IMG/VR virus record: IMGVR_UViG_3300035199_000815
Span: 1-43,588 of that record
Direction: 5' to 3' (one strand)
DNA: 43,588 nt
Origin: a virus
The translations under genes were made by a program, and so were the position numbers. The notes beneath the pieces were generated by a model. That model was not told the origin of the DNA, searched no databases, and saw only the letters and a program-made list of their open reading frames with translations. Positions 2,673 through 43,588 of the stretch are shown here, in pieces. The stretch's first letter is position 1; the number at the start of each line of letters is the position of its first letter.

Positions 2673-5413
2673 TATTTTATTACTTCCTCTCTTATTCTAT
2701 AAGTAATGTTCAAATCTATTTTTTTACCAGTTTTGCGGGACGTCAGACGAATTTTAAAGGGCTGGTCCCAAATGGTTTTTTCAACACCGGTGCCTACCCC
2801 CAGGTTGTCTAATTGAGATTCTGCCGATTCTGAATAGTCTACGTTGGTGTCGTCCATTAGAACATGTTGTGCATTCGGTATAATGCGCAAAAGCTTTTTC
2901 ATTGGCTGGAAAACTTCTAAATCGTTTTGTTCGTCAAATTCAGTTTCATACATTACATCAAATTTAGCATATTTGTAGCCCCCATCGTTCACAAGTTCGG
3001 CGACATATATGGGAGAAAGAAACCCAGGAATTCCGTGCTCATTGACGAATCTAAACAAGTAATAGTATTTTTTATTTGTTGCAACCATCTCCTCATAAAA
3101 GCAATTGGTTTTTGTATATTTATAACCAGAAAGGGTTAAATCTTTACTTTCTACAAGGGCTCCCGCAAAATCAGAGATGGCTGTTGGTTTTGTATCTAAA
3201 CGATAAACCTCTAAGAAGTTTGCTCTAGACACCGATGATTCTTTAATTCTTTCTCCATCAAGAAGGTTGTATGAACGCAAATAATTATCCTTATACGTTT
3301 GTTCGTCAGACGTCATCAAAGTGGGGAAGGGTGCAGGACTAGTATCCTTGGAATCGCGACCTCCCTCCTGATTCGCGTAAAACCCGATGATTTGAGAGTC
3401 GTCCATTCTTTGATATGGTGTAATATCTACAGCCGACGGCATGTGATCTAAAATTGTAATTTGCTTGGTTCCTAATGAAACTTCCATAATCTTCCAAGAA
3501 GGTTCTAAGCTTAAATTAAACTCAGCCATATAGCGATCTTCGCTCAATACTTGGGCATTTGTAGCATATTCATTTTGGGCCATGAGTTCATTCTCTTCTG
3601 CTGAAACTAGCAATTGCTCAGCAGTTTGTCCCGTAGAAAGATTATAAAACTCTAAGCAGTAGCTATCAGGCAACGAGGTGGGCGCCAAGGCGGCGCCACC
3701 CAGACCTTCAATGGCTGTGAATCCGAAGGGTGTTCCAATTAGCCTTGTCGCTCTTAAGTCCGAATATTTGTAGTTATAACCCTTTACGAGTACGTAGGCA
3801 AAAATCTCATAGTTGTAGGTGGCGCCATAGCGCACTTGTGAGTCATAATAATTTAAACTGGTGCCGAGGGCGGATGTATTAAGAAAAAACGTATCCTGCA
3901 CTGTCGTCTGTGTCTCAGTGGGGGCAGTGGGGAACGTTCCCACCTTGTTGATCCGGAATGCCAGCGTGTCCCCCTCGCCTGCCTCATCGGCCATCTGGAG
4001 AAAATCAAACATGTTTCCCGTGGACCCATCACTCACGCAATCGAGGGGCATTATATACATTTGTTCTATTACGGTATTGAGCATATCAAACGTAGGAAGA
4101 GAGTGAGTATATCGGTAGGAACCATAAGCATTTCGGAGCGCTTTAATCTCCGCAGTGAGCGGTTGCATAAAATATTGATCGGCTGGCGTATCAGTAACTG
4201 ATAAATTAAGAGAATTCAAAAGCATTCTGAGAAAATCGGCACTCCGATAAGATGTGTTGGTAGTGACGGTTTTTGATACGACCGAGCCAGACTCTGCTGT
4301 GTCAAAGGTTGTGGCAGCAATGGTGGGATAGTTGACTGTGCCCACTTGGTGTCCTGTAAACTGCTGGCGCAGAGTGGATAAAAACAATTTATCATAATTA
4401 GCTACTTCCATCTGCGCCACGAGGGCGCTGCGATGAGCATCGGTCGGCACATCAAAAGAAACATAATAGGGGAGCCGCGGCAAAACCTGATCCTGTAGCA
4501 ACGCAGGCGAATATTTATCCATTGTCGTGCGATCAAACAATAGATTGGGGGTGCGATTTACGATGAATTGAGCCGTTGAGGCAGACAAAGTTTCATTGAC
4601 GAGGGTGCCTGTTAGATAATCTCGCAGATTCTTTGTCTTGTCGTTATACATGCCTTCAGCAATCGTTGGGTCGCTTTCTGTCTCTACATAAGGGGGAGGA
4701 TAAAGAGTTGTCGTGTCTCTCAAAATCAACGTCGGATTATGGGTCGCCTCCATAGAGACAAATCTTCCGATCTCCTCATCGACCGCGAAATCTGGATCAG
4801 AGTGCCACATCTCTCCAGGACTGAGGGTTGCTGATTGTCTGAACATTTCTAAGAGGTAAAGATTGGGGATCAGCAGATCGCTGCTGCGGGAAGCCATCTT
4901 GTCTTCATAGGCGGGATAATATTCTTGATAATTACACCTCACTTCATAATAAGGATATGTGCCATAGCTAGCGGAATCTATATTCTTAGCATCGAGCAAT
5001 GAGTAGGGGGTATTTATAACAAAATTGTGACAGTCAAACGTTCCTTCGCTTAAAAAGCCTTCATATGAGGCAGTCCCCCACGTGCCTCCTTTTAAAATCG
5101 CTTTCCACTCGGCATCATCTTTAATGAGATCTGGATCTCCCAAAATCCTAACAGGAAATTTGTAATTGGGGATGATAGAAGTTGCCGAAGCTGTAACATA
5201 TGCGCTAGCTGGTGCTACACTAATATCTGCTGCGTGAATAGCGTCGACCCATGTGGATCCGTCATCTTCGGGCGCCTCGGAGAATACGAGAGCGGAACCA
5301 TGCTCTGTCGAATCAGATATGGTCCAGTACCCTCCGATAACATTTCTAACTTTATCGCCAGAACCCGACATCAGGTTGGTATCAATATTTTTTATTTCTA
5401 CTTTATCGCTCAT
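2672..5413 (-). CDS. Large virion structural protein (913 aa)
   Basis: A 913-aa protein without signal peptide or membrane segments. It is rich in Tyr, Thr, Ser and Asp. The region around residues 500-600 and 740-810 has aromatic beta-strand patterns (for example TYNYEIFAYVLVKG and KKYYYLFRFVNEHG) that resemble fibronectin type III-like strands, but I cannot assign the fold firmly. The C-terminal 50 residues are more charged. The start ATG at 5411-5413 has no strong ribosome binding site; it is preceded by GTAGAATAAATT, a context similar to that of two other large genes here. It lies 23 bases after the 266-aa gene and overlaps the 342-aa gene at its end. A tail or fibre component is inferred from its place in the run. 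Confidence 0.75.
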   Translation of the reverse strand: MSDKVEIKNIDTNLMSGSGDKVRNVIGGYWTISDSTEHGSALVFSEAPEDDGSTWVDAIHAADISVAPASAYVTASATSIIPNYKFPVRILGDPDLIKDDAEWKAILKGGTWGTASYEGFLSEGTFDCHNFVINTPYSLLDAKNIDSASYGTYPYYEVRCNYQEYYPAYEDKMASRSSDLLIPNLYLLEMFRQSATLSPGEMWHSDPDFAVDEEIGRFVSMEATHNPTLILRDTTTLYPPPYVETESDPTIAEGMYNDKTKNLRDYLTGTLVNETLSASTAQFIVNRTPNLLFDRTTMDKYSPALLQDQVLPRLPYYVSFDVPTDAHRSALVAQMEVANYDKLFLSTLRQQFTGHQVGTVNYPTIAATTFDTAESGSVVSKTVTTNTSYRSADFLRMLLNSLNLSVTDTPADQYFMQPLTAEIKALRNAYGSYRYTHSLPTFDMLNTVIEQMYIMPLDCVSDGSTGNMFDFLQMADEAGEGDTLAFRINKVGTFPTAPTETQTTVQDTFFLNTSALGTSLNYYDSQVRYGATYNYEIFAYVLVKGYNYKYSDLRATRLIGTPFGFTAIEGLGGAALAPTSLPDSYCLEFYNLSTGQTAEQLLVSAEENELMAQNEYATNAQVLSEDRYMAEFNLSLEPSWKIMEVSLGTKQITILDHMPSAVDITPYQRMDDSQIIGFYANQEGGRDSKDTSPAPFPTLMTSDEQTYKDNYLRSYNLLDGERIKESSVSRANFLEVYRLDTKPTAISDFAGALVESKDLTLSGYKYTKTNCFYEEMVATNKKYYYLFRFVNEHGIPGFLSPIYVAELVNDGGYKYAKFDVMYETEFDEQNDLEVFQPMKKLLRIIPNAQHVLMDDTNVDYSESAESQLDNLGVGTGVEKTIWDQPFKIRLTSRKTGKKIDLNITYRIREEVIK

Positions 5414-5419
5414 AATTTA

Positions 5420-5479
5420 TTCTACGTTAATCATCGTTAGCTGTAAGATGATTCTTCTTCTACGTTGGTCATCGTTAGC
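5420..5479. repeat. Short direct repeat across the stop codon of the 266-aa gene
   Basis: Two 22-base copies (5420-5441 and 5458-5479) differ at two positions and lie 38 bases apart. The inner copy encodes LTMTNVE at the end of the 266-aa protein. The outer copy spans its stop codon and would encode LTMINVE then stop in another frame. The offset of 38 is not a multiple of three, so the second copy is out of frame. It looks like a small tandem duplication followed by a frame change. Confidence 0.75.
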
Positions 5480-6237
5480 CCCAGGCTCACTCCTTGTCCG
5501 ACTTCTCTTGTTCTAAATGCTCTCAAGTTGCCATCCAACAATCTCGGGTGTTTTGCTTTGGAAAAGTGAAGCTCTGTGCTTGGGAATGTTTGCAAAACTT
5601 CTTTTGCCATGCTCAACATTTCCTGTTCAATAATATCTTGGGCTGTCGTACCCGAGGGGAGGTAGGGAAAACTTTTGGCTAAGCCCTCGATTTCATCCGC
5701 GTCATATTCAATATGCCAATCTTCCGTAGCAACTCCGGATGGATTGGGAGCGATGACTGGCGATTCGGGATTAAAGTTTTGGAACGGCGCATACAGCCGA
5801 AAAGTTGTTTCTGTATAACCTGTCTCATCTGACCACTCGCTCACTCCTCTCGAATGTACGATTTCACCAGCATGCTGTTGAGTAAAAATGCCCATGGATT
5901 CATTGCCAAAGTCGTCAAGACCAAGTGCATCAGTCGCTGAGTACTCGCTAACAGAGTCGGCATCCAGTTCCTCGCCGGCGTATTCCGACGCTCCACCAAC
6001 GGTGCCTGCGGCGGTGGCGAAAGTGTTCTGATATTGAAAAGCAACGTCTACGCCGTTGCCCGCTACTATTAGCCCCTCACTATCTATGCTGGTGCTGGGG
6101 ATTCCCGCAACAACAGAAAGCTCTCCTTGTGGACCAGTGGTTAGTGATCCGGCCAACTCGCTTGGGGCTGCTTCTTCCGCGCCGACGGTGGATTCGCGGT
6201 CTGAGCCACCTCCTCCGCCGCCATATGGATCAGCCAT
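5437..6237 (-). CDS. Hypothetical virion protein with Gly-rich N-terminus (266 aa)
   Basis: The 266-aa protein begins MADPYGGGGGGSDRE and has an acidic, Gly/Ala/Ser-rich first third followed by a more ordered acidic region (residues about 100-260) with no signal peptide or membrane segment. The start ATG is 1 base after the stop of the 191-aa gene, and a strong GGGAGGAGA ribosome binding site is embedded in the last codons of that gene (the final GRR), which strongly supports both the start and translational coupling. I do not recognise the family. The C-terminal seven codons before EESSYS are duplicated out of frame beyond the stop. Its place between large structural genes suggests a virion or assembly role, which is an inference. 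Confidence 0.7.
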   Translation of the reverse strand: MADPYGGGGGGSDRESTVGAEEAAPSELAGSLTTGPQGELSVVAGIPSTSIDSEGLIVAGNGVDVAFQYQNTFATAAGTVGGASEYAGEELDADSVSEYSATDALGLDDFGNESMGIFTQQHAGEIVHSRGVSEWSDETGYTETTFRLYAPFQNFNPESPVIAPNPSGVATEDWHIEYDADEIEGLAKSFPYLPSGTTAQDIIEQEMLSMAKEVLQTFPSTELHFSKAKHPRLLDGNLRAFRTREVGQGVSLGLTMTNVEEESSYS

Positions 6238-6238
6238 T

Positions 6239-6814
6239 TTATCTCCTCCCTATGCCATAAGCTCTTATGGTCTTTTGAGAAGAAGAATTGGCTTGTTGAA
6301 TCATCTTCACAGCAAGCGCTGTAAGATCGGGTGCCGCCTTCTCCTCTGCTTTTCTTATTTGTTTTTGCTTGCTTGTTGATAGCGGTCCATCAGAAGTATA
6401 GAATGGATCGCCTGGAAGAGCAAACATCGTTTCTAGCGTTATTTTGCGCTTTTCAATATCTCTATATTCTGAAGGGTTTAGAATGCTAGGGTTCTCAATA
6501 ATTTCAGTATCGAGTTGTGTGTGGATGAGGGAATAATTCTTTTTTTTCTGTTCTGGCAGTGTTGCGAGGCTTATGCCGGCGACTCCCAGTGCATCTGAAG
6601 CTAATTGTGCGATAGGTTGGGATTGATTGCTTCCGGCTTTTAAGCCGTTTCTTTGTAAATCTTGGTTAAAGCGAGCAATTAAAATTTGATCGGCTCCGGT
6701 GGAGGGCGAATAAGCTACTCCCTGAAATACCTGTATTGAGCTTCGCTCGGCGAGCGCTTTTCGAGAAGCTGGTCTTGATAAAAATCCTGAAGTTACTGTT
6801 GTTCGTGCTGCCAT
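6239..6814 (-). CDS. Hypothetical protein (191 aa)
   Basis: A 191-aa protein, basic and Gln/Ala/Ser-rich, beginning MAARTTVTSGFLSRP. It has no signal peptide, membrane segment or recognised motif. The ATG at 6812-6814 follows an AGAAGGAG ribosome binding site, and a TATTTAT promoter-like motif lies 23 bases upstream, so it probably heads a transcription unit that includes the 266- and 913-aa genes. The C-terminal codons double as the ribosome binding site of the next gene. The family is unknown; a small structural or assembly protein is inferred from context. Confidence 0.65.
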   Translation of the reverse strand: MAARTTVTSGFLSRPASRKALAERSSIQVFQGVAYSPSTGADQILIARFNQDLQRNGLKAGSNQSQPIAQLASDALGVAGISLATLPEQKKKNYSLIHTQLDTEIIENPSILNPSEYRDIEKRKITLETMFALPGDPFYTSDGPLSTSKQKQIRKAEEKAAPDLTALAVKMIQQANSSSQKTIRAYGIGRR

Positions 6815-6865: not shown

Positions 6866-9800
6866 TTACGGAAGATCTCCATTCCACGTCTCGCTGCTCT
6901 TGTTCCATTGAGGATCGTTTTCGAAAATGCTATCTTCCCACTGAGAGGTGGGGGATTTCGCATAAAGTCCATGATTCGAGTCGCCTGAATAGGAAACTGA
7001 AGTGGTGCTGCCGCAATCACATCGCAAAATATAACGAGTGTATTTGGTTGGCATCGAGCTTCCAATCGCTTGTCCGCTGGTGCTGCCGAGGGTTCCTTCG
7101 AGTTCGTCTTCGATGTGTTCCACGCCAGCAGGCACCTTGATTCTCTTTGTGACGAAGACCTTCGTTGCGTCCGTGGCGCCGTAGGGCCCAGCGCCTGTGC
7201 AGTCGGCGCGTGCATGCCATGTAATGCTATATTCTATACCGGCATAAAGATACACCGTCCGATATCTTTCGCTATTGGGTTTGCATTCGCCGCGCTCGAA
7301 ATCCCATCTGCTGTTATAGAGTTTTAAACCGTCGGACCGGGACACGTCGCGACTAAGTTTGTCGGTGATCATCGACGTGGTGGGGTTGGATGGGTCACTT
7401 CCGTCGGGCAATTCGCCAGACTCTCCTACCACGGTGATTCTTATCCAACCATCGGAGCCACCACTCTTGGCGCCGCAGTCGGGGATCTGCTTGAATCCGA
7501 AGCCCATTTTAACCATGCGGATCTCTCCGCGGGTTTCCGCTGTCGCGGCTGCGGCGGCTTCGGCGCTGCCATCGTCGAGGCTGGTCCACCCCGGCGGTAA
7601 ACCGGTGGTCTCGCTCATGCAAAAACCCCAGGTGCCGTCAGTATCGATCCCGTGGGCATCAACATATTCCTGCGAGACGTAAACATGACCCGGGTCAAAG
7701 CCCCATGGTCGGTCCACTATATACTGTGACGCGGCGCTAACCCAGCGACCGGGCTTCCAGACTCTCCCGGGAATGCACGTCTCCGGCGCGGAGATGTGAT
7801 CAGATTTTACCAATTCTATATAGGCAGCCCCAAAAAGATAATCAGTTTGAAGTTCCGGCAGCGGATATTTTGCGATGCGGTTCCCAGATCCACCATCGTC
7901 GCCAGAGTTAAATTTTCCAAATACAGCAGTGTAATTTTCGAGACCTTCAGAAGCCACAGCAATATCGCCGCTGGAAGGTTCGTAATGGGCTGTGTAGAAA
8001 TCCTTAAATTTCTGCCAAAATTCTTGCAATCCTTCTAATCTTCCAGTGGTTGGGTTTATTAGCTCACTGTCTCGTATTGCGGCGTCAATAATTCTATCAC
8101 GAGAACCACCATGGGCATCTGTTAGCAAATCCGCATGAAAGTGATATATCGTGGGAGCTAAAACCCATGGCGCTGTTTCGGGGAGTCCTTCATACTTTTG
8201 AAGCATCGCATTAATAAAGAATGTGTTGAAATATCCTTCTGGACTATTATAGCTGCAGTATTCTGCCGCGGCTTCTACATATTCTTGAAGGCTTCCGGTT
8301 GCCATGGAACTATACGCCCCCACGAAGGCATCATAAATATTCATAGTTCTGTCGCGAACCGCCACGCTAAATGTAAAAAAGTCATTGAAGGTGGGTTCAT
8401 AATCAATATTGGTTTTTTGATTATGGCAAAGATCTTGAAACTCCATGGCCATGAGCCGATAAGGCTTATCATCAATGGTGAGACCGTTAGCAAATTTAAA
8501 ATTTCTTAAACAATCATAAGTATATTCTGTTTTATCGGAATCGATGCCGAGCAGAGATTCATCATAGCCGCCGCCCTCTCCGGTGTCGGTGTCGATGGCA
8601 GGTGGGTTTATTTCACCGGTGTTCATGGACTTCCACGTGCCTCCTCCGTATCCGGAATCGCCTTTATAATCTGAATTTGTCCACACATCGCTATACTCTA
8701 AGTCAGGATATGGGTTTGTTGAATTAACATCATATCTTGCTTTAGAGAGAGAAACTAGTGGGGTGGGATTTGTCAGATCTCCATGATCATTAGAATCGGG
8801 CCATGAGGCCGGGCGGGTTGTTCCGTAGCGATCATTTATTTCCCCATCCGTCTCTGAGATTCCGACTTGCTGCAGGTCACCGGCTGCGTTAACAGTATAT
8901 TCCATATGGTTCTGGATCCGTCGACGGCGCCGGCGATTCGTCTGCTTGAGCCGGAAACTATCATTTATTATCTCTTGGCCAAACCAGCTTTCTATTCTGT
9001 CTATTGGTAACAATCTTGAAAGATTGCTGCCCTTTCGAATAGCCCGTTCGTAATCAAAAAACCAATATCCCGAGGTATAAATGTCCATAGTATCCATTTC
9101 CGCCGACGATTCAGGACGGGTGCTAAATTTACTTACCAGCACCATCGATGGATTAATGTAGTTATATGTCATGGCAGCGGTGCCCACCTCCCATCCATCC
9201 ACCAAGCCCCTATATGGCGCTGGGGTGATGGTGCGGCGATCTTTTACAACTGGGCTTTTAATGAGTTTCTTCATGAGAACAGTGCCGCTTTCAACAGCAT
9301 TGTTGGCATTGTAAATCATAATTTTTACTTTTTCGTACATTCGACCGCCTTCGGTGGTGGTACTCTTTTCAGGGAAGGTTTTTCTAAAAAAGTTTAATTG
9401 CACCAAAAGGTCGATACTGCTTCCGTGCTCTTCCAAAATATAATTTATATTGTCATACATATTCTGGACAATGCTGTTGTTGCTAATTCCAGTTCCCACA
9501 AATTCTTTGAAAAGGGCAACAATATCGCTTAGGGCAATCTCTGTATCTCCATAATAAAGTCCATTGATTGCCTGGATGGGGGTTTCGTCGTACTCTTCTC
9601 CGTTGGGCATTACATAAATCAGAATAGGATCGCTTACGATTTCTCCATAGTGGGTCATCTTCTCGTAGGTGGCGTCAGAAACTTGAGCTTCGTAGAGCTT
9701 CGCTCTGCCTTTGTTTTTGCGGGATCCCATAAGTATATTATCATAGCCAACATCCATATCTCCAATTTCAAGTGGCGATGTAAAAGTTACCATACTCACA

Positions 9801-25353: not shown

Positions 25354-27150
25354 TTACCTAATCTTTCCTTTGATGTCTACTGAAGGATACTTGATTTCAA
25401 AAATGGCGTTGCGGGGTGCGATCAGCGAACCACCATCGGGTGATAGATTCTTTTGGACTTCGAACGCGACCGAGGAATAGCTTCCACCCAGCTTGTTATA
25501 AAGCTTAACTGTCACGACATCTAAGATATCTCCTACCTTGTTCAATTCGTTATAAATGCCGCTAATAGAAATCTCTTCCGCAATAAAAAATCCTTCTTGA
25601 AACTTTGCCGTGAGTGCATTAACGGCATTGTTAAGAACATCAGCGCGGTGGGCGCCGGGGACTGGCTTAATTACAAAGTCAATTCCCATATTAATAATAT
25701 AAGGATCGAGAATATCAACAGTATCATTAATCATTCTATACTGTTCGAGCCAAGTTTTTAAATTATTTTTAATGGAAGAGTTGGTTTTAGTGAGCAATCC
25801 GAAAGAATCTTCAGAAATCACATACATATTTAAGTTTCGTTTAAGAGAATCTTGATCTTTTTGAACGGATACGCGCTTGATAGAGCCATATTTAGCAGGC
25901 ATTCTATAAGCTAAATTTTCATAATCAGCCTGTGTCACCGCACGATTCTGTGTGGGGAAGGTGTCGAAGATTCTCCTCTTTATTTCTCCCGTCGAAGGGG
26001 TAGACACGTCGCCAACGATAGGCTCCTCATTAGACACTTCCAAAGATTGAACAATCTCCTGTACAGTTGTATCACTTAGGATGGTTCTATCTGCGAAATC
26101 CATCATAGTGCTGGATACTGTGTCTAGGGCGCCGGCTGATACGTTTGAGTTCGCCGGGTTGGTGGTACGATAGGTTACAGTTAAAGTGGTGTTGGCGGGG
26201 CAAATCCCAAAGTTCTTGTTTTTAGAAAGTCGCGTAGGGTCAAATGCCGTATCGGTAACATAGCTCTTCCCAAAAACATCAATTGCTACTTGTTGAGGGT
26301 TTGCTACCACATTTGACTCAGCAGCATTGCCGCTTCCAAACTGCAAGTATGCGATATCTCGACCGCGCTCAACAATAAACTTTCGAGAAACCAAGAAAGG
26401 CTTTAAAATAGAGGGGACATTGTCGCTTTGATAGTTAGTGTTTGCCAGTTCTTTAAAGATCATATCTTGTGCCAAATACTCAACTTCAAAATATTGATTA
26501 CCTTCGGAATCAAATACTGAAATAATTTCGGAGATATTTGTGCTTGCTAATTGAATTCTTTTAAATCTCTCAAAAGCGCCGACATCGACTGTTTCTTGAC
26601 CAAAGTGCCCGGAAACCACATTCCCATATGCTTTGATTGCATAGTGGGTGGGGGCACCACTTTCGGCGTCCACCTGTGCAACCACCGTCTGGTTGCTGGG
26701 ATCAGAAAAGGATACGTTCTCTGTCAAGACAAAGGCTAAACCGTTTTGTGAGCTAAATGTAGTGCCTCGGGATAGTGTAGGTATGTAAGAAGGATCGGGA
26801 CCCATACCAGTTGTGATGGTAGGAACTTGAATATACAAAGCGACTGGACCAAAGGTGGATGGGCGGCCGAGGTTTTTATACCCCAACACTCTTCCGTGAC
26901 GGACCACATTACTATATTGATATGCGGTGTCTAGGAAAGACTCGTTAACGTTATAATCCAGATAGAGCGCAAGCTGGTCACCGACATATGCGACGGCATC
27001 CAGCATCATAGCACCGAAGGAAGCTTCACTAAAATCTTGAAAGTTTTCAGGATAGAACCTTTCGGCCATTTGAAGCAAGTCGCTACGTATACCTTCGAAC
27101 TCTCTATGAGTGTAGTTAATCGGTAAAATTTTCTTTTGATCATCAGCCAT
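25354..27150 (-). CDS. 6: Baseplate wedge protein, gp6 / baseplate J family
   Basis: The protein of about 598 aa matches the T4 gp6 family. The N-terminus has YTHREFEGIRSDLLQMAERFYP, then FSEASFGAMMLDAVAYVGDQ and NESFLDTAYQ. The C-terminal half has the baseplate J pattern GEIKRRIFDTFPTQNRAVTQADYENLA followed by an alternating alpha/beta domain. gp6 dimers form the inner ring of the baseplate wedge in contractile tails. The frame is also open from a TTG at 27153, but the ATG at 27148-27150 with a GAGG site upstream is preferred. It follows the gp25 gene by 15 bases, the usual pairing. Confidence 0.92.
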   Translation of the reverse strand: MADDQKKILPINYTHREFEGIRSDLLQMAERFYPENFQDFSEASFGAMMLDAVAYVGDQLALYLDYNVNESFLDTAYQYSNVVRHGRVLGYKNLGRPSTFGPVALYIQVPTITTGMGPDPSYIPTLSRGTTFSSQNGLAFVLTENVSFSDPSNQTVVAQVDAESGAPTHYAIKAYGNVVSGHFGQETVDVGAFERFKRIQLASTNISEIISVFDSEGNQYFEVEYLAQDMIFKELANTNYQSDNVPSILKPFLVSRKFIVERGRDIAYLQFGSGNAAESNVVANPQQVAIDVFGKSYVTDTAFDPTRLSKNKNFGICPANTTLTVTYRTTNPANSNVSAGALDTVSSTMMDFADRTILSDTTVQEIVQSLEVSNEEPIVGDVSTPSTGEIKRRIFDTFPTQNRAVTQADYENLAYRMPAKYGSIKRVSVQKDQDSLKRNLNMYVISEDSFGLLTKTNSSIKNNLKTWLEQYRMINDTVDILDPYIINMGIDFVIKPVPGAHRADVLNNAVNALTAKFQEGFFIAEEISISGIYNELNKVGDILDVVTVKLYNKLGGSYSSVAFEVQKNLSPDGGSLIAPRNAIFEIKYPSVDIKGKIR

Positions 27151-27165
27151 CAAAAAACCTCATTA

Positions 27166-27531
27166 TTAAATAGTAAATTCTAATAAATCTGCTATTCCTA
27201 TGGCGGGTATTGTGTAATCAATCCGTACCGACAACTTATTTAAATCTGGCTCAATGCCAAAATCGAGTTCCGTAATAGAAATTGCAGGAATATAAAGCGA
27301 CGTCTGTTTTAAGATTTTGCTACGAACTTGTTCGTGTACGTTTTCGCTATAATTTAAAAACAAATAGGTCCTAAGCCCACACCCAAAATCTGGATCCATC
27401 ACTCTTTCGCCGGGATCCGTTAACAAAAGCATCTTAAAATTTTGCTTCAGGGTTGACTGAATGCTTTTTAGCATTGTAAACCCATCGGCTGAGTTGTGAG
27501 TGATGGGCAGTCGCACGCCTATTGAAGCCAT
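27166..27531 (-). CDS. 25: Baseplate wedge protein, gp25-like
   Basis: A 121-aa protein of the GPW/gp25 family. The features are a helical start (MLKSIQSTLKQNFKMLLLT), the conserved DPGERVMDPDFGCGLR turn (T4 gp25-like proteins have a G-x-R...P-x-F-G-x-x-L core), and the amphipathic helix FLNYSENVHEQVRSKI leading to beta strands. gp25 binds gp6 and starts sheath assembly at the baseplate in T4-like phages. The length (121 aa) is normal for the family. The start ATG at 27529-27531 has a GAGGA ribosome binding site and a TATTTAT motif 17 bases upstream. Together with gp6 it is firm evidence of a contractile-tail phage. Confidence 0.93.
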   Translation of the reverse strand: MASIGVRLPITHNSADGFTMLKSIQSTLKQNFKMLLLTDPGERVMDPDFGCGLRTYLFLNYSENVHEQVRSKILKQTSLYIPAISITELDFGIEPDLNKLSVRIDYTIPAIGIADLLEFTI

Positions 27532-36986: not shown

Positions 36987-38726
36987 CTATAGGTCCTTCC
37001 ATGCCGGATGTTTGCCGCAAGTGGCATAATGCCCATCAGCGCGAGAGACCCAACCCCAGTCCTTTCCTTCTCTGCCTGGGCAACCACTGGTGTTATTACA
37101 CTTAGACTGAGTACATTTTTCGCCAGAGGCGATGGCAAGAGCTTCACTCTCAAATTTGCCGCCTCCCCATGGACTCTTGGCTGAGGCGCCGGGCGCTACT
37201 CCCAATTTGCTCTGGGCTTCGGGATTAGAACATGCGCCGGCGCCATAGCAAGACGGGTGGCGTTTGCAAAAACTTTTAAAGGGATAAAAAGCCTCCAGAT
37301 ACTTCGCATACTTCCAGTTAGCGTTCTCATTTAGTATAATTTTTCCGGACGATCTTCGTGTATAATAAGGAATTCCATTATTGCTCTTGCATAAGTATGT
37401 TTCCCAGCTATTAAACCTTTTAGTGTAACTCCAGAGGTCCTCGGGGCTGGGCGTCGTGCCGGCTTGACGGTCGGCTAGTTTTCCCGGGATCGTCTTTTGC
37501 CAAGGGCTGGCTTGTGCGGTGGTCTCGCGGGGTAGACCGGTCTTGCCAGAGGGGGCTGTGACCATCATCTGAGCATTGGCGCCCTTTGAAAGCCATGCTG
37601 CCACCATAAAGCCTGTCCGATCCGCGCCGTGCGTGCAGTGAATCAAAGTATTGCCGACATCAAAAAATGGCATTACTTTTTCGAGGGACTTGACATATCC
37701 CCTGCCGCGTACAAAACCTGATTGCGCATAAATATAATGGAATTTTGCTTTCGTTCCCGGAGGAGACCCGGCGGGATGTAGGCTTTCTGCATATGCTTGT
37801 TCCAAAGCGTGGGAAACACAAACACCATAATTTTTATCATGACTATACGAGATATCGTTTCCGGTATTACCGTTCATTTTTATTATATCAGTAACTCCCT
37901 TTACTTCAATAAGCCACTTTAAATCTTGCAAGTGAGGCTGCTGGTATCTCCAGTTGTTATTTCCAAACATCTGCAACATTTTAGATTTTGTTCCTGTAGA
38001 ATTCGGATAGGTTGGAGGAGTTTTAACCTTCGAAAACAAATCCCCTACAGTTGTGGGATCTGTTTCTTGTGCGCATTTACCTGATTTATTTAGCTTGGCG
38101 CCGGATGCGCCCCCCGTAAAGCGAGCCGTCACCGGAGGATCGACTGTGGGGAGCACGTCTCCCAAAGGATTATATGCAGAAGTGTCAAATAGTGCACGAA
38201 AATACTTGCACCTGTCGTCCGTCGCGGCTGCTGTTATAGAGTCTAGCGATGTGAAAAATGCGTATTGAAGATTGTATTTAAACTGGCCTGGCATAATCGT
38301 CACTTTAACGCGGTCTCCTATGCTGGGTAAAAGCCCTTCGTACTCTCCCTCTGAAAAAAACTTAGTATGCCATGATATTATCTTGGCAGCGCATCCAGGG
38401 TCGGCGGAGAGGGCGGGGTCGCAAGGATCCGGAATTGTCGAATGGGGGGAAGGGGCGTCTGTTCCTTCCGACATAATACGCCCCATAAAAACAATACGCG
38501 ATGCAGTGGATCCTGCTAACGCATATCCTTCGCTTCCTATGGCGCCCATTACCGCCTTAAAATCATTTGCGCTGAGGGGCATTGGTCGAGTTAGGACTCG
38601 CACAATAAACGTTTCTTTATCTCCATACACATCAGGTCGAACTGCATCTCGTAAAGCCTCATTGTCTGCTTGTTCGGCCTCATGTGGCGTGGAGAATTCC
38701 GAACGAGCAAAGACGCGATTAGCCAT
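36987..38726 (-). CDS. Baseplate hub-like protein fused to Cys-dependent phosphatase domain (579 aa)
   Basis: The N-terminal domain (to about residue 195) is paralogous to that of the lysin gene: IVRVLTRPMPLSANDFKAVM, IVFMGRIMSEGTDAPSPH, IGDRVKVTIMPG and LQYAFFTSLDSI. The C-terminal part has the phosphatase P-loop IHCTHGADRTGF, with nucleophile Cys364 and Arg370 (C-x5-R), preceded by FFDVGNTL and followed by a helix, as in tyrosine/dual-specificity phosphatases of the HC-x2-G-x-DRTG type. The last 110 residues are Cys-rich with Lys, Gly and aromatics (CKRHPSCYGAGAC, CTQSKCNNTSGC), perhaps disulfide-bonded or metal-binding. The substrate is unknown. It overlaps the start of the preceding 100-aa gene's end by 8 bases, and its stop is 68 bases from the lysin start. 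Confidence 0.82.
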   Translation of the reverse strand: MANRVFARSEFSTPHEAEQADNEALRDAVRPDVYGDKETFIVRVLTRPMPLSANDFKAVMGAIGSEGYALAGSTASRIVFMGRIMSEGTDAPSPHSTIPDPCDPALSADPGCAAKIISWHTKFFSEGEYEGLLPSIGDRVKVTIMPGQFKYNLQYAFFTSLDSITAAATDDRCKYFRALFDTSAYNPLGDVLPTVDPPVTARFTGGASGAKLNKSGKCAQETDPTTVGDLFSKVKTPPTYPNSTGTKSKMLQMFGNNNWRYQQPHLQDLKWLIEVKGVTDIIKMNGNTGNDISYSHDKNYGVCVSHALEQAYAESLHPAGSPPGTKAKFHYIYAQSGFVRGRGYVKSLEKVMPFFDVGNTLIHCTHGADRTGFMVAAWLSKGANAQMMVTAPSGKTGLPRETTAQASPWQKTIPGKLADRQAGTTPSPEDLWSYTKRFNSWETYLCKSNNGIPYYTRRSSGKIILNENANWKYAKYLEAFYPFKSFCKRHPSCYGAGACSNPEAQSKLGVAPGASAKSPWGGGKFESEALAIASGEKCTQSKCNNTSGCPGREGKDWGWVSRADGHYATCGKHPAWKDL

Positions 38727-39021
38727 TGGCTGGATCGTCCCCTTGAATCAAATCAAAGAGACTGTTTTTATCGTCTTCAGTCAGCATGACTTGCGCTCCG
38801 ACTTTCTTCTGGCGCAATCCGATAAGCTTGACTAATTGTTCGTTGGAGCGCTGCAGCGACTGAACGTGCTGTGCGGCGACCGGGCTTAAGTATTTATTTT
38901 GGGTCGCGTCAGAAGCAATCTGGTTAGCGATCTCATTCAAAAACTCACGTGCTATTTTACGATCATTACGAATATTATCCAAAGCTTCATCGATTAATAT
39001 TTCTAAATCTTGGTGGTTCAT
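38719..39021 (-). CDS. Small protein next to the late sigma factor (100 aa)
   Basis: The preferred start is ATG at 39019-39021, giving MNHQDLEILIDEALDNIRND. It overlaps the sigma factor stop as ATGA, so the two are translationally coupled; an upstream in-frame start at 39039 lies inside the sigma gene and is less likely. The protein is mostly helical, acidic, and has a Gln/Arg-rich middle (VQSLQRSNEQLVKLIGLRQKK) that could form a coiled coil. I see no clear similarity to the T4 late co-activator gp33, although the neighbourhood makes a partner of the sigma factor conceivable. Its 3' end overlaps the 579-aa gene by 8 bases. The family is unknown. Confidence 0.7.
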   Translation of the reverse strand: MNHQDLEILIDEALDNIRNDRKIAREFLNEIANQIASDATQNKYLSPVAAQHVQSLQRSNEQLVKLIGLRQKKVGAQVMLTEDDKNSLFDLIQGDDPANG

Positions 39022-39722
39022 AATGTGCCGGACTCCCAATCAACTCTAAAATGCTCATACTTCTTGCGGAACTTCTTCAAAGAGTTTACGATTTGCTTGG
39101 TGTTGAGCCCCGTAATCTCTCGAAGGTATAGATAAATAGCTTTTTTATTAAAAATTTCGATATCTTCCTTGGATTCAAAAAGAATAATAATAGCTTTATA
39201 TACTTTTAAATCGTTATCCTTCATTTGAGATACGTCCCAGGACTTTAGCTCACCATAAAAAAGTTCCCAAAACTCTTCTTCTTCTCGTATTGTAACATAA
39301 GACTCACTGGTGGAGAGGTATTCCTCTTCATAGCTTTTGGATATGTTGTCATAATCTACCTCGCGGCGATTACGTTTTTGTTGCCTTTTTACTTTATGGA
39401 TAAACCAATTTTTTGTTATGACCGAAAAGTAAGAAAAGGCTTTAGAGCCTTTGTTGGGATCGTACTTGTCGAGAATGGTCATTAACCATATCTTACACTC
39501 ATCACGGAGAGAGTCACAATTAGGCAAATTGGTAAACTTATAAGTAAAAACTATTTTGTCTACCATTTGATTGAATGCGGGACCGATCCATTTAATATAC
39601 AGGTCGGTGCGCTCTCTTGAACAATTAGTTAGCGTATAGCGAACAATTGCATCTTCATGGTCTTGTGTAAAATAATGATTTTTTGGGGCTTTTTTTCTTT
39701 TTCTACGGGGTTTCGTCGTCAT
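39018..39722 (-). CDS. 55: T4 gp55-type late-transcription sigma factor
   Basis: The 234-aa protein has a very basic N-terminus (PRRKRKKAPK). Residues about 50-115 match sigma region 2 as in T4 gp55: NQMVDKIVFTYKF, then LRDECKIWLMTILDKYDPNKG, then KAFSYFSVITKNWFIHKVKR. A C-terminal helical segment (about 195-222, IYLYLREITGLNTKQIVNSL) resembles a helix-turn-helix. gp55 directs host RNA polymerase to phage late promoters. I do not see the clear C-terminal clamp-binding hydrophobic motif of T4 gp55, so how it contacts the sliding clamp is open. The gene overlaps the upstream 117-aa gene by 20 bases and is coupled to the 100-aa gene downstream. Confidence 0.88.
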   Translation of the reverse strand: MTTKPRRKRKKAPKNHYFTQDHEDAIVRYTLTNCSRERTDLYIKWIGPAFNQMVDKIVFTYKFTNLPNCDSLRDECKIWLMTILDKYDPNKGSKAFSYFSVITKNWFIHKVKRQQKRNRREVDYDNISKSYEEEYLSTSESYVTIREEEEFWELFYGELKSWDVSQMKDNDLKVYKAIIILFESKEDIEIFNKKAIYLYLREITGLNTKQIVNSLKKFRKKYEHFRVDWESGTL

Positions 39723-40556: not shown

Positions 40557-41390
40557 TTATTTGATGGATATAGCTCTTCCCAGCATGGAGAGCCAATCCT
40601 TTTCTTCTCTAATTTCTAAATTCTTGTTCCATGCGCATTCTAGTACGCTTGGGTCTATGCCTTGTTGTTTGGCAAAATATATTAAACAATTCAAATCTTT
40701 GGGGAAACAAGTTCCACCAAATCCAAGTATACCATCTGGGCCCGGAACTTTTAAGTGACTATTTCCAATTCGCTTGTCAAGCAGCGCTAAATCCTTTACG
40801 ATATCGTATTCAACATCAATTGCATTGCAAATTTGGTTTATCTCATTGGCAAAAGAAACCTTGCACGCAAGGAAAGTGTTTATAAAATACTTCACCATCT
40901 CAGCAGTGCGCCAATCTGTCTGTTCATATTGTTTATTTGGAAAAACTTCCTGCATCATGGCAACACAAACGGCGGTATGCTCCGGGGCGCCACCAAAAAT
41001 AACGCGATTACATGTTTTAAAGTCTTCCACGGAGTTGCGTTCTGTCAAAAACTCTGGGCTAAACACAATTTTTATCTTAGGATTGCGCATAGCTAAGTCA
41101 TCACATGTACCCGGTGGGATTGTAGACTTGATGATTACAATATTATTGTTATACCAATAGGAAATTTGTGCCATTACATTATAAATGATTGATAAATCAC
41201 ACTGTCCGGTCTCTTTCATTGGCGTTGGAAGCGCCACATAAATGATATCAGAGTTGTGACACACATCTCTAACGTGCCCGCACGTCGAACGAGATGCATC
41301 TTTGTCGTAAACGGCAAACGGATAGCTATCTTTCATGTTTTCGTAGATAGCATTTCCTACAAACCCTCTTCCTATCAATCCTAATTTCAT
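40557..41390 (-). CDS. UDP-glucose/GDP-mannose dehydrogenase family, short form (277 aa)
   Basis: The N-terminal Rossmann motif is GLIGRGFVG (residues 4-12). The NAD-domain strand IVIIKSTIPPGT and the family segments FSPEFLTERNSVED and AEMVKYFINTFLACKVSFANE follow. The catalytic cysteine is Cys228 in GFGGTCFPKDL. This family oxidises UDP-glucose or related nucleotide sugars to uronic acids with NAD. At 277 aa it is much shorter than the usual 390-450 aa because it ends soon after the central helix, so the C-terminal nucleotide-sugar-binding domain is missing. Short forms may still act if a partner or altered substrate binding compensates, or may be inactive. It is 9 bases after the GT29 gene. 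Confidence 0.88.
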   Translation of the reverse strand: MKLGLIGRGFVGNAIYENMKDSYPFAVYDKDASRSTCGHVRDVCHNSDIIYVALPTPMKETGQCDLSIIYNVMAQISYWYNNNIVIIKSTIPPGTCDDLAMRNPKIKIVFSPEFLTERNSVEDFKTCNRVIFGGAPEHTAVCVAMMQEVFPNKQYEQTDWRTAEMVKYFINTFLACKVSFANEINQICNAIDVEYDIVKDLALLDKRIGNSHLKVPGPDGILGFGGTCFPKDLNCLIYFAKQQGIDPSVLECAWNKNLEIREEKDWLSMLGRAISIK

Positions 41391-41399
41391 AATTGTGCC

Positions 41400-42074
41400 T
41401 TATTCATGAATGTTTATTATACCATTCTTTTGTAAAAGTGAAAATATTTTCTTTTCATTGTCAAAATCGTGCCCTGCGACCATGTTATAACTGTTGATTT
41501 CATCGAAATAGTGCTTCTTAACAGCCGGATCATAGAACGAAAACCCATAACAATCAATCTTGGAGTAGAACCGGAGTGCCATTAGCAGCCCTATGAAGCC
41601 GTTTGTCGCCTCTTTACCCCCATTTAGCTTGTTTCCTAACTCATAAAAGTCCTTGTGGATGAAATAAACCTCATTTTTTTGCCTTACTTGGTCTAAAATG
41701 TGGGTTTTTTGCCACAATTGCCACGTCGGATCTGTCTTAAAAATGATGATTTCACCCTCTATTTTATACAAAAGCTCCCTATCAAGCTGTGGATGTCGTG
41801 CTTTTTGCTGTGCAAAATAGGCGTTATCTTCGATATTGAGGATACTGTGGCAGTTCATGAGGCGAAAAGTGGTTCGAGAGCCTGCATGCTTCTCAAACGA
41901 GGCAGTTTTTGCGCCGTTAAACCTAATGACATCATCGCTGCTGTCGATGTCGGTCCCGTGCTCGTTATCTAACAAATTGCCAGAGCTTCCCACGATAGAA
42001 CACACACTCCCCGGTGTAAATTCCCTTTCTTCTCTTAAGAAGTTCGTCTCTTTTATTTTGTCTATCAGTTTCAT
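41400..42074 (-). CDS. GT29-type sialyltransferase, compact (224 aa)
   Basis: All four sialylmotifs of the animal-type GT29 family can be found. Motif L is at about residues 25-72 (CSIVGSSGNLLD, then GTDIDSSDDVIRFN, then GSRTTFRLMN). Motif S is at about 156-178 (ATNGFIGLLMALR...IDCYGF). Motif III is H188-Y-F-D191. Motif VS is H202-x4-E207 (HDFDNE). GT29 enzymes transfer sialic acid from CMP-sialic acid to glycans. No membrane anchor or signal peptide is present, so a cytoplasmic enzyme is expected. The ATG overlaps the dioxygenase stop (ATGA). NeuB two genes upstream suggests a matched donor pathway. Transfer from a eukaryotic or marine bacterial source is possible but not shown. Confidence 0.85.
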   Translation of the reverse strand: MKLIDKIKETNFLREEREFTPGSVCSIVGSSGNLLDNEHGTDIDSSDDVIRFNGAKTASFEKHAGSRTTFRLMNCHSILNIEDNAYFAQQKARHPQLDRELLYKIEGEIIIFKTDPTWQLWQKTHILDQVRQKNEVYFIHKDFYELGNKLNGGKEATNGFIGLLMALRFYSKIDCYGFSFYDPAVKKHYFDEINSYNMVAGHDFDNEKKIFSLLQKNGIINIHE

Positions 42075-42829
42075 GTTTGTCTATTGTGATAATAAATGGC
42101 CATTCGATCCCGACTTTCGTCTTTAAGAACGCCGCCACCGTGCCATACATCAGTGTTCAATACCAATAAGTCGCCCGGAGAGGCGCCAATGTATACTTTG
42201 TCGTCTTCGGTATATCGCGACTCAAAAAGTTCTTGATAATCTATAAATCGATGAGAGAATCCCTTTTTAAAATTTGCCTTGTGCTGCAGCATATTCTCGC
42301 GGATGTGTTTTCCCTCGTCATGAGAGCCTGGGATTACAAAAAGGGCTCCGTTATTTTCGTCGGTCTCCTGCAGCATCACTGCAAACTTTAACGCAGGGTA
42401 GGGGTCGAAGTGCAGCCATGAATTGCGGGGCACTTCATCACCTTCAGTTTTCTTGTATTCGTGAGTAGTAAAGACTTGCATTAGTTTTCTATTGGGCGGA
42501 GGATAAAAGTGATTAAGAAAGTCATCCAAATATGGATCCTCGGCGATAAGGGAAATTGTTTTTCCAAACATCGGGTAATATTGGGGATTGATAATTCGCA
42601 TGGCTTTGCCGGTTTCGTGAGTGTTATGCTTTTTAATACCCCCGAAGCCAAACTCGACGTTGGTGAAATCGGGAATCTTGTTGTATATGATGGTAAGTTC
42701 ATCTTTAACTTCTTCTAACTTTTCCGTATCAAAATACGATATTACTTTAAGGGCTCCTATCTCACTAAAAATACTTTTTGCTATAGAGCTATCTTCCTTA
42801 AATTCTTTTCCGCTTATGTCGAAGGTCAT
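42071..42829 (-). CDS. Phytanoyl-CoA dioxygenase-like Fe(II)/2-oxoglutarate oxygenase (252 aa)
   Basis: The iron-binding triad is visible: H140-x-D142 in WLHFDPYP and H230 in VWHGGG, with a 2-oxoglutarate-binding Arg nearby (R240 or R242 in SRDRMA). The motif NNGALFVIPGSH is typical of the phytanoyl-CoA dioxygenase family. These enzymes hydroxylate small molecules or lipids using 2-oxoglutarate, oxygen and iron; several members modify sugars or secondary metabolites. The length is normal. It overlaps the cupin by TAATG and the GT29 gene by ATGA, so the three are one translationally coupled unit. A role in modifying a nonulosonic acid or other glycan is an inference from context; the substrate is unknown. 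Confidence 0.82.
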   Translation of the reverse strand: MTFDISGKEFKEDSSIAKSIFSEIGALKVISYFDTEKLEEVKDELTIIYNKIPDFTNVEFGFGGIKKHNTHETGKAMRIINPQYYPMFGKTISLIAEDPYLDDFLNHFYPPPNRKLMQVFTTHEYKKTEGDEVPRNSWLHFDPYPALKFAVMLQETDENNGALFVIPGSHDEGKHIRENMLQHKANFKKGFSHRFIDYQELFESRYTEDDKVYIGASPGDLLVLNTDVWHGGGVLKDESRDRMAIYYHNRQT

Positions 42830-43227
42830 TAGTCACCCTTTAAGATCCGATAACTATCAGTATCGTAATGTGTCGTGGAGAACTCAAACAATTCCGAATC
42901 CTCCAGTGCCACCATCTGATGTCGCAAGCCGCGATAAACGTGGAAGTTGTCGCCGGCATTGAGAATCAATTGGTTGGCGTTCCTGATATCATCTTCCTTA
43001 GAATAATATATCATCATCTTACCAGATTGCAAATAAAAGACTTCATCTTTAAGTTCGTGATAATGCCAAGAGCACCTTTTTCCCCCTTTGAAGTAAAGAA
43101 GTTTGCCGCAATACTCTTCGTTATTGACGACCCAACGCTCCCAGCCCCAGCCTTTGTCCACGTGTTTCATCGGTAATTCGTGCCTATTGCATGCATTACA
43201 AACGATATCTTTTGGCTCTTCTCCCAT
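42829..43227 (-). CDS. Cupin-fold protein (132 aa)
   Basis: A single-domain cupin. Motif 1 follows G-x5-H-x-H-x4-E-x6-G exactly: G49, H55, H57, E62, G69 in GKRCSWHYHELKDEVFYLQSG-type spacing. Motif 2 gives G92 and H103 (GDNFHVYRGLRHQ), so the usual metal ligands His/His/Glu/His are present. The N-terminus has CNAC (C10, C13) and a Trp-rich KGWGWERW segment that resembles the start of sugar-isomerase-like cupins of capsule loci. The function could be isomerase or epimerase on a sugar precursor, or a regulatory sensor. It is 1 base from the NeuB gene and overlaps the dioxygenase gene, so it belongs to the glycan unit. Confidence 0.8.
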   Translation of the reverse strand: MGEEPKDIVCNACNRHELPMKHVDKGWGWERWVVNNEEYCGKLLYFKGGKRCSWHYHELKDEVFYLQSGKMMIYYSKEDDIRNANQLILNAGDNFHVYRGLRHQMVALEDSELFEFSTTHYDTDSYRILKGD

Positions 43228-43228
43228 C

Positions 43229-43588
43229 TTACTTGGTCACCCAATAGGGTGTAGCCAATTTATCGCGGTGTACTTGCTCAAAATCGTTTAGAATTTTCTC
43301 ACCGCTACCCATAGCCGCGTCAATAATTCTAATGTCTCTAACCAGCCTTATAAGCCCGTCAGGCTCAATAGATGCGGCCTGGTCGGACCCATACATTGCG
43401 CGGTCTAAAGTGATATGACGCTCAACAGATGTGGCACCCATTGCAACAGCCGCGAGCGAAATCTGAAGACCTTTCTCGTGACCGCTATATCCTACATTCT
43501 TGGCATAGCGCCGGCGCAGGGCGGGAATCATGCTAAGGTTCGCTGTATCGTTCTTTAACGGGTATGCCGAAACACAATGCATCAATTC
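43229..43588 (-). CDS. neuB: NeuB-type nonulosonic acid synthase, partial (N-terminus off right edge)
   Basis: The reading frame is open through the right edge, so the N-terminal part of the gene lies outside. The visible C-terminal 119 residues match N-acetylneuraminate/legionaminate/pseudaminate synthases: LMHCVSAYP, then VGYSGHEKG, then AAVAMGATSVERHITLDRAM and GSDQAASIEPDGL. The TIM-barrel core of this family condenses phosphoenolpyruvate with a hexosamine. The protein ends at YWVTK soon after the barrel, without the SAF (antifreeze-like) domain that normally closes NeuB. The exact sugar product cannot be told from this part. It is 1 base upstream of the cupin gene. Confidence 0.88.
   Translation of the reverse strand, partial: ELMHCVSAYPLKNDTANLSMIPALRRRYAKNVGYSGHEKGLQISLAAVAMGATSVERHITLDRAMYGSDQAASIEPDGLIRLVRDIRIIDAAMGSGEKILNDFEQVHRDKLATPYWVTK

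Follow-up and report, generated by a model that had tools for sequence, protein, structure and literature searches.

The stretch of DNA analysed here (the window) spans the whole of an IMG/VR virus record, 43,588 bases long. Genes for two baseplate wedge proteins (minus strand, 25354–27531; phrog_219/6 and phrog_261/43) and a late sigma factor-like protein (minus strand, 39018–39722; phrog_234, E = 3.8e-5, and a tblastn match to Flavobacterium phage immuto) were found in the window, which bears out the phage origin proposed in an earlier note on this sequence, and one further protein was weakly related to a tail-lysozyme family. Judged by its gene content, the window is a fragment of a contractile-tailed phage. 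No terminase was identified in the 43.6 kb. A protein encoded among the tail genes (36987–38726) includes a dual-specificity/tyrosine phosphatase-like stretch that fell below threshold.

The late and tail genes are adjoined by a sugar island that runs in the same direction. Toward the contig end, and all on the minus strand, the gene order is UDP-sugar dehydrogenase, GT29, PhyH, cupin and neuB. The last gene of the island (40557–41390) encodes a UDP-glucose/GDP-mannose dehydrogenase-like protein (Pfam PF00984 and PF03721), and the adjacent open reading frame, which has an ATG start and occupies exactly 41400–42074, encodes a GT29-family sialyltransferase-like protein of 224 amino acids (aa). 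Beyond it are genes for a PhyH-type Fe(II)/2-oxoglutarate dioxygenase (42071–42829; PF05721, E = 7e-11), possibly a sugar-modifying enzyme, for a cupin-domain protein (42829–43227; identified by domain search and by comparison with a sister phage), and for the C-terminal part of NeuB, a PEP-dependent ulosonate synthase truncated by the contig end (43229–43588; PF03102, E = 6.8e-34). The association of the GT29 gene with neuB described previously therefore holds, but the two are not immediate neighbours as the PhyH and cupin genes intervene. The start of the GT29 gene and the stop of the PhyH gene share 4 bp, an arrangement that suggests translational coupling.

GT29 is a sialyltransferase family best known from animals, and accounts of sialic-acid biology mostly concern animals together with a small number of pathogens. 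The 224-aa protein matched Pfam Glyco_transf_29 (PF00777) with E = 7.5e-32 and a score of 111.2 bits (cut-off, 23 bits), covering profile positions 49–272 of 272, and the match was reproduced when the search was performed on DNA. Single-sequence phmmer searches of the PDB retrieved ST3GAL1 (5e-12), ST6GAL1 (1e-11), ST6GALNAC2 and ST8SIA3. GT29 was the sole family found by Pfam and no PHROG or NCBIfam model was matched, and other transferase families were ruled out as there was no second match in any of the three. The catalytic domain starts approximately 20 residues after the N-terminus, and no hydrophobic N-terminal stretch that could serve as a type II membrane anchor was seen when the sequence was judged by eye, consistent with the earlier description of the protein as anchorless.

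All four sialylmotifs (L, S, III and VS, the last in the form H-x4-E) were present in order, as had been claimed. Motif L, C25–N74 (CSIVGSSGNL...IDSSDDVIRFNGAKTASFEKHAGSRTTFRLMN; minus strand, 41853–42002), was located by alignment with pig ST3Gal1 and the phage homologues, and includes R51-x-N53 and GSRT at 65–68, which align with ST3Gal1 and ST6Gal1. Motif S, A156–F178 (ATNGFIGLLMALRFYSKIDCYGF; minus strand, 41541–41609), was located from alignments using the numbering in PMC6884586, and retains ATNG...YGF with a degenerate P-S-T part. Motif III, HYFD (H188–D191; minus strand, 41502–41513), and motif VS, HDFDNE (H202–E207; minus strand, 41454–41471), include H188 and H202, predicted to be the catalytic acid and base, respectively, from the roles given in PMC6884586. 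In human ST3Gal1, these roles belong to H299 and H316, and E321 lies in motif VS (PMC6884586); in that numbering, H299, Y300, H316, E321 and N170 correspond to H188, Y189, H202, E207 and N53 of the phage protein. R51, G65, R67, T68, G159, Y189, H202 and E207 are invariant across 22 phage homologues, and N53, H188 and G177 are conserved in more than 90% of them. As to the motif spacing, described earlier as near ideal, the glycine of YGF in motif S is 11 residues from the motif III histidine, as in human ST3Gal1, and the histidines of motifs III and VS are 14 residues apart compared with 17 in the human enzyme.

The disulphide that joins motifs L and S in animal enzymes (C142–C281 in human ST3Gal1) cannot form in its usual place because, although C25 aligns with C142, the residue aligned with C281 is Y170. 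C25 is also not conserved among the phage relatives. The ST3Gal1 residues that contact Neu5Ac (S268, T269 and Y191) are replaced by T157, N158 and N74, and the donor sugar may thus not be Neu5Ac. At the position of N147 in ST3Gal1, where an N147S substitution strongly lowers activity (PMC6884586), the phage protein has S30, and serine is found there in ST6Gal1 too.

An AlphaFold2 model of the GT29 protein, built from an alignment of 17 viral sequences, had a pLDDT of 82.1 and a pTM of 0.85. A fold search of the PDB gave 30 matches with E ≤ 0.001 (1e-9 to 1.6e-6), every one a mammalian GT29, and the first match beyond the mammalian GT29 chains had E = 0.09. As all significant matches are GT29, the model is in keeping with the GT-A variant 2 Rossmann-like fold and active-site histidine looked for in it and, together with the Pfam result, upholds the original assignment to GT29. 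In a fold search of viral models, the best match was A0A516M7H5 (BFVD; 49% identity, TM 0.92), the nearest relative seen outside IMG/VR, and further matches comprised GT29 encoded by viruses of eukaryotes and a protein of an uncultured Caudovirales phage that already bears the name GT29. The label 'animal-type' given to the protein in the earlier note overstated its rarity, as bacterial GT29 that are anchorless and free of the disulphide were reported in 2018 (PMC5811610) and GT29 is also known from eukaryotic viruses and the uncultured Caudovirales phage. The label is also misleading because the phage protein, like these bacterial enzymes, has no anchor and lacks one of the two cysteines that form the disulphide of animal enzymes.

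A GT29 protein with 85% identity to that in the window is encoded by a sister phage, which was recovered from two metagenomes with no difference across 20.7 kb. The dN/dS ratio between the two genes is ~0.05, with synonymous sites near saturation, and the gene is under purifying selection. The E-values, the near-invariance of key residues in the 22 phage homologues and this ratio together exclude a chance match, and the 224-aa protein is a genuine member of GT29. In the sister phage, the gene order is neuA, neuB-cupin, PhyH, GT29, UDP-sugar dehydrogenase, and the gene for a CMP-sugar synthetase, absent from the cut window, is found beside neuB. The sister island further on carries genes for this synthetase, two SDRs, a xylose isomerase-like protein, a TylF methyltransferase, a PIG-L protein and GT4-type transferases. 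Cupin and NeuB are encoded by a single fused open reading frame in the sister phage, and in the window by two, divided by a TAA stop and a following ATG; in a comparison of window positions 43190–43260 with positions 8820–8900 of the locus extracted from the sister phage, a repeat of ~14 bp, ATTGGGTTACCAAG, shifts the frame in the sister and removes the stop. The sister-phage cupin is ~60–73% identical to cupins adjoining heptose genes of cyanophages.

NeuB was encoded in 13 of the 20 nearest GT29 records and a CMP-sugar synthetase family member in 18 (17 above the cut-off), compared with 8 and 16, respectively, of 33 more distant records, though the records are not independent, some being near duplicates. 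In the 17 IMG/VR records having a synthetase gene, the nearest one was always on the same strand as the GT29 gene, and the distance between the profile matches was less than 3 kb in 16 and less than 450 bp in 12. When the phage NeuB served as a tblastn query against 50,697 phage records, NeuB was reached in 3, one of which is actually bacterial; outside the GT29 records, NeuB is thus very uncommon in named phages. As different search methods underlie the two sets of figures, this contrast should be read only as a guide. FPLJ01000048.1, listed among the phage records, is not a phage but a contig of Moritella viscosa that carries a capsule cluster for sialic acid. Cyanophage AG-345-L05, examined as a reciprocal check, has NeuB and gave no match to GT29, and the protein encoded after its NeuB had no Pfam or NCBIfam match. 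In the cyanophage record MH319754.1 (Kyanoviridae; 4998–6813 of the extracted locus), NeuB is followed by a 224-aa protein without a family match, which by eye shows a resemblance to a GT42/GT29-like motif S and may take the same slot as GT29.

One marine phage contig (5813–10206) includes genes for NeuB, NeuC, a Polysacc_synt_2 protein, a NeuA-type synthetase, GT29 and a nucleotide-sugar dehydrogenase in one operon. Its NeuB includes a SAF domain and scored 388 bits, just below the cut-off, and its NeuC scored 374 bits against a curated cut-off of 235.9. The operon is predicted to provide a full set of enzymes for CMP-Neu5Ac, or a close relative, plus its transfer. This conclusion does not carry over to the clade of the window, as the NeuB there is without SAF and no NeuC was seen.

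GT29 relatives are encoded on ~70 IMG/VR contigs in total, after four further scans of viral contigs, and 28 of 28 representatives of the distant set matched Pfam GT29. A tree of 38 viral GT29, rooted against a single outgroup sequence (a fragment of pig ST3Gal1), had long branches that diverge deeply; high support was largely confined to nodes close to the tips, and the deep nodes were weakly supported. A recent capture from an animal was rejected, as the protein has its closest relatives among phages and the viral tree is deep-branched, albeit with this weak deep support. No bacterial donor of GT29 was found in a scan of genome contigs, in plasmids or among 300 Bacillota, a sample from which Proteobacteria were absent. 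The two NeuB-bearing genomes examined also had no GT29. The loci L047 (5001–8687) and L048 (4989–8627) encode a SAF-less NeuB with 63% identity to that of the phage beside an apparent fusion of a KdsC-like phosphatase with a phosphoheptose isomerase-like domain and an apparent ThDP enzyme, and possibly represent an unusual ulosonate pathway. In the huge phage LR756508.1 (307694–331432), GT29 genes number at least five; several of them form tandem arrays, and genes for NeuB, GDP-mannose/fucose-type enzymes and a synthetase are close by. An unannotated GT29-like gene, AAY80_202, was also found in the cultured Stenotrophomonas phage DLP6 (GenBank accession number KU682439; 6001–6792 of the extracted locus), a possible laboratory system for phage GT29. 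No direct report of a phage GT29 or a phage NeuB was found in the literature searched.

We infer, with a probability of roughly 0.8, that the 224-aa protein transfers an ulosonate from a CMP donor with inversion and so caps a glycan whose synthesis is encoded in the sugar island of the phage itself. NeuB would join phosphoenolpyruvate to a sugar to form an ulosonic acid, a NeuA-type enzyme would activate this product with CTP to the CMP-ulosonate, and the GT29 protein, soluble and cytoplasmic, would move this acid, either sialic acid or one closely related to it, from the CMP donor to the glycan as a cap. The reaction would be a one-step inversion, with H188 as the acid and H202 as the base. 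The GT4-type transferases, dehydrogenases and PhyH protein of the island would build or modify the remainder of the glycan, leaving transfer by GT29 as the last step.

Whether 'sialyltransferase' describes more than the family is evenly balanced, as the donor may be an ulosonic acid other than sialic acid, such as Kdo, Kdn, legionaminic acid or a novel heptose- or mannose-derived sugar. The NeuB of the window clade, being without SAF, scored 251 bits against a NeuB_NnaB cut-off of 399.65, no NeuC was seen in the island of this clade, and the best model for the synthetase was PseF, at a sub-threshold score. The nearest counterparts of the cupin partner are encoded in heptose clusters of cyanophages, and the nearest bacterial NeuBs (63%) are, on our reading of the sequences, adjoined by a KdsC-like phosphatase fused to a phosphoheptose isomerase-like domain. 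For plant GT29, Kdo has been put forward as the sugar transferred (PMC5811610), and the donor-contact residues differ from those of ST3Gal1. However, in a related phage clade, NeuC, a SAF-containing NeuB and NeuA are encoded beside GT29, which is the classic Neu5Ac route. As to the target, a glycan of the virion, modified late in infection, appears the most likely and is somewhat favoured over the host envelope because the island adjoins and runs with late tail genes and no flippase or polymerase was seen in the parts read, though this evidence is weak. Modification of the host LPS or capsule, which would mask a receptor, block superinfection or hide the infected cell, is a less probable alternative. 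It is consistent with the view that bacterial GT29 and NeuB/NeuA serve surface polysaccharides (PMC5811610 for LPS), and with the GT4-type transferases and UDP-sugar dehydrogenase in the island, but a membrane protein was likewise not recognised in this non-exhaustive reading of the island, which is co-directional with the tail genes beside it.

That the gene is decaying or encodes a catalytically dead protein retained by chance is very improbable: S30 replaces an asparagine important in ST3Gal1, but the dN/dS ratio is 0.05, the motif residues are kept across the phage family and the operon is intact in independent phages. It is less credible still that the contig is bacterial or chimeric, or that the GT29 match is spurious. 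Though the window is a 43.6 kb fragment without an identified terminase, it includes the baseplate wedge, late sigma-like and tail-lysozyme-like genes, the same gene order recurs in a second phage that is identical in two metagenomes, and GT29 is also present in the isolated phage DLP6. We consider it an even chance that diverse marine tailed phages have a self-sufficient ulosonate-capping system (NeuB, in one clade also NeuC, NeuA and GT29) that coats virions or the infected cell with a sialic-acid-like sugar, and that phage GT29, instead of having been captured recently from animals, are a separate radiation that is both old and diverse. A widespread branch of phage GT29 linked to the synthesis and activation of its donor would extend sialic-acid biology to marine phages and provide deeply diverging sequences with which to ask how eukaryotic GT29 originated. 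Small phage enzymes that are anchorless and independent of disulphides should be easier than human ones to produce in bacteria, and decoration of virions or infected cells with acidic sugars by phages becomes a testable idea.

The fold of the window GT29 is shared with mammalian ST3GAL1, ST6GAL1, ST6GALNAC2 and ST8SIA3 (TM 0.57–0.68 by query length), as are the motif order and catalytic histidines. However, identity is only 18–23%, there is no Golgi anchor or disulphide partner, and the phage protein is ~40–95 residues shorter than the solved mammalian chains. GT29 from Alpha-, Gamma- and Epsilonproteobacteria likewise have four sialylmotifs without an anchor or a conserved motif L/S disulphide (Petit et al. 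2018; PMC5811610), and phages are not mentioned in that report. Coccolithoviruses encode GT29 (PMC5371807), and GT29 of the ChoanoV1 mimivirus, herpesviruses and squirrelpox virus are represented in BFVD; these viruses have eukaryotic hosts and the named proteins share at most 22% identity with that in the window. AAY80_202 of DLP6, annotated as hypothetical, matched GT29 with E = 1.2e-7 and lies in a phage sugar cluster, but is 19% identical to the window protein, and NeuB was not found in the DLP6 genome. LR756508.1 combines GT29 with NeuB and a CMP-sugar synthetase as in the phage cassette, its best tblastn match having 26.8% identity. The bacterial sialyltransferase families GT42, GT38, GT52 and GT80 would also use CMP-sialic acid, but were not matched by the window protein in Pfam. 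GT6, found in bacteria and two cyanophages (PMC3961637), is a precedent for a transferase family known from vertebrates occurring in phages, though family and donor (UDP-sugars) differ. GT29 is already known from bacteria and eukaryotic viruses, and one protein of an uncultured phage carries the name. Within the literature searched, the apparent novelty is that GT29 without an anchor or the disulphide have radiated broadly among phages, in many cases tied to NeuB and NeuA. From their gene content, some phages thus appear equipped to add sialic-acid-like caps to glycans on their own.
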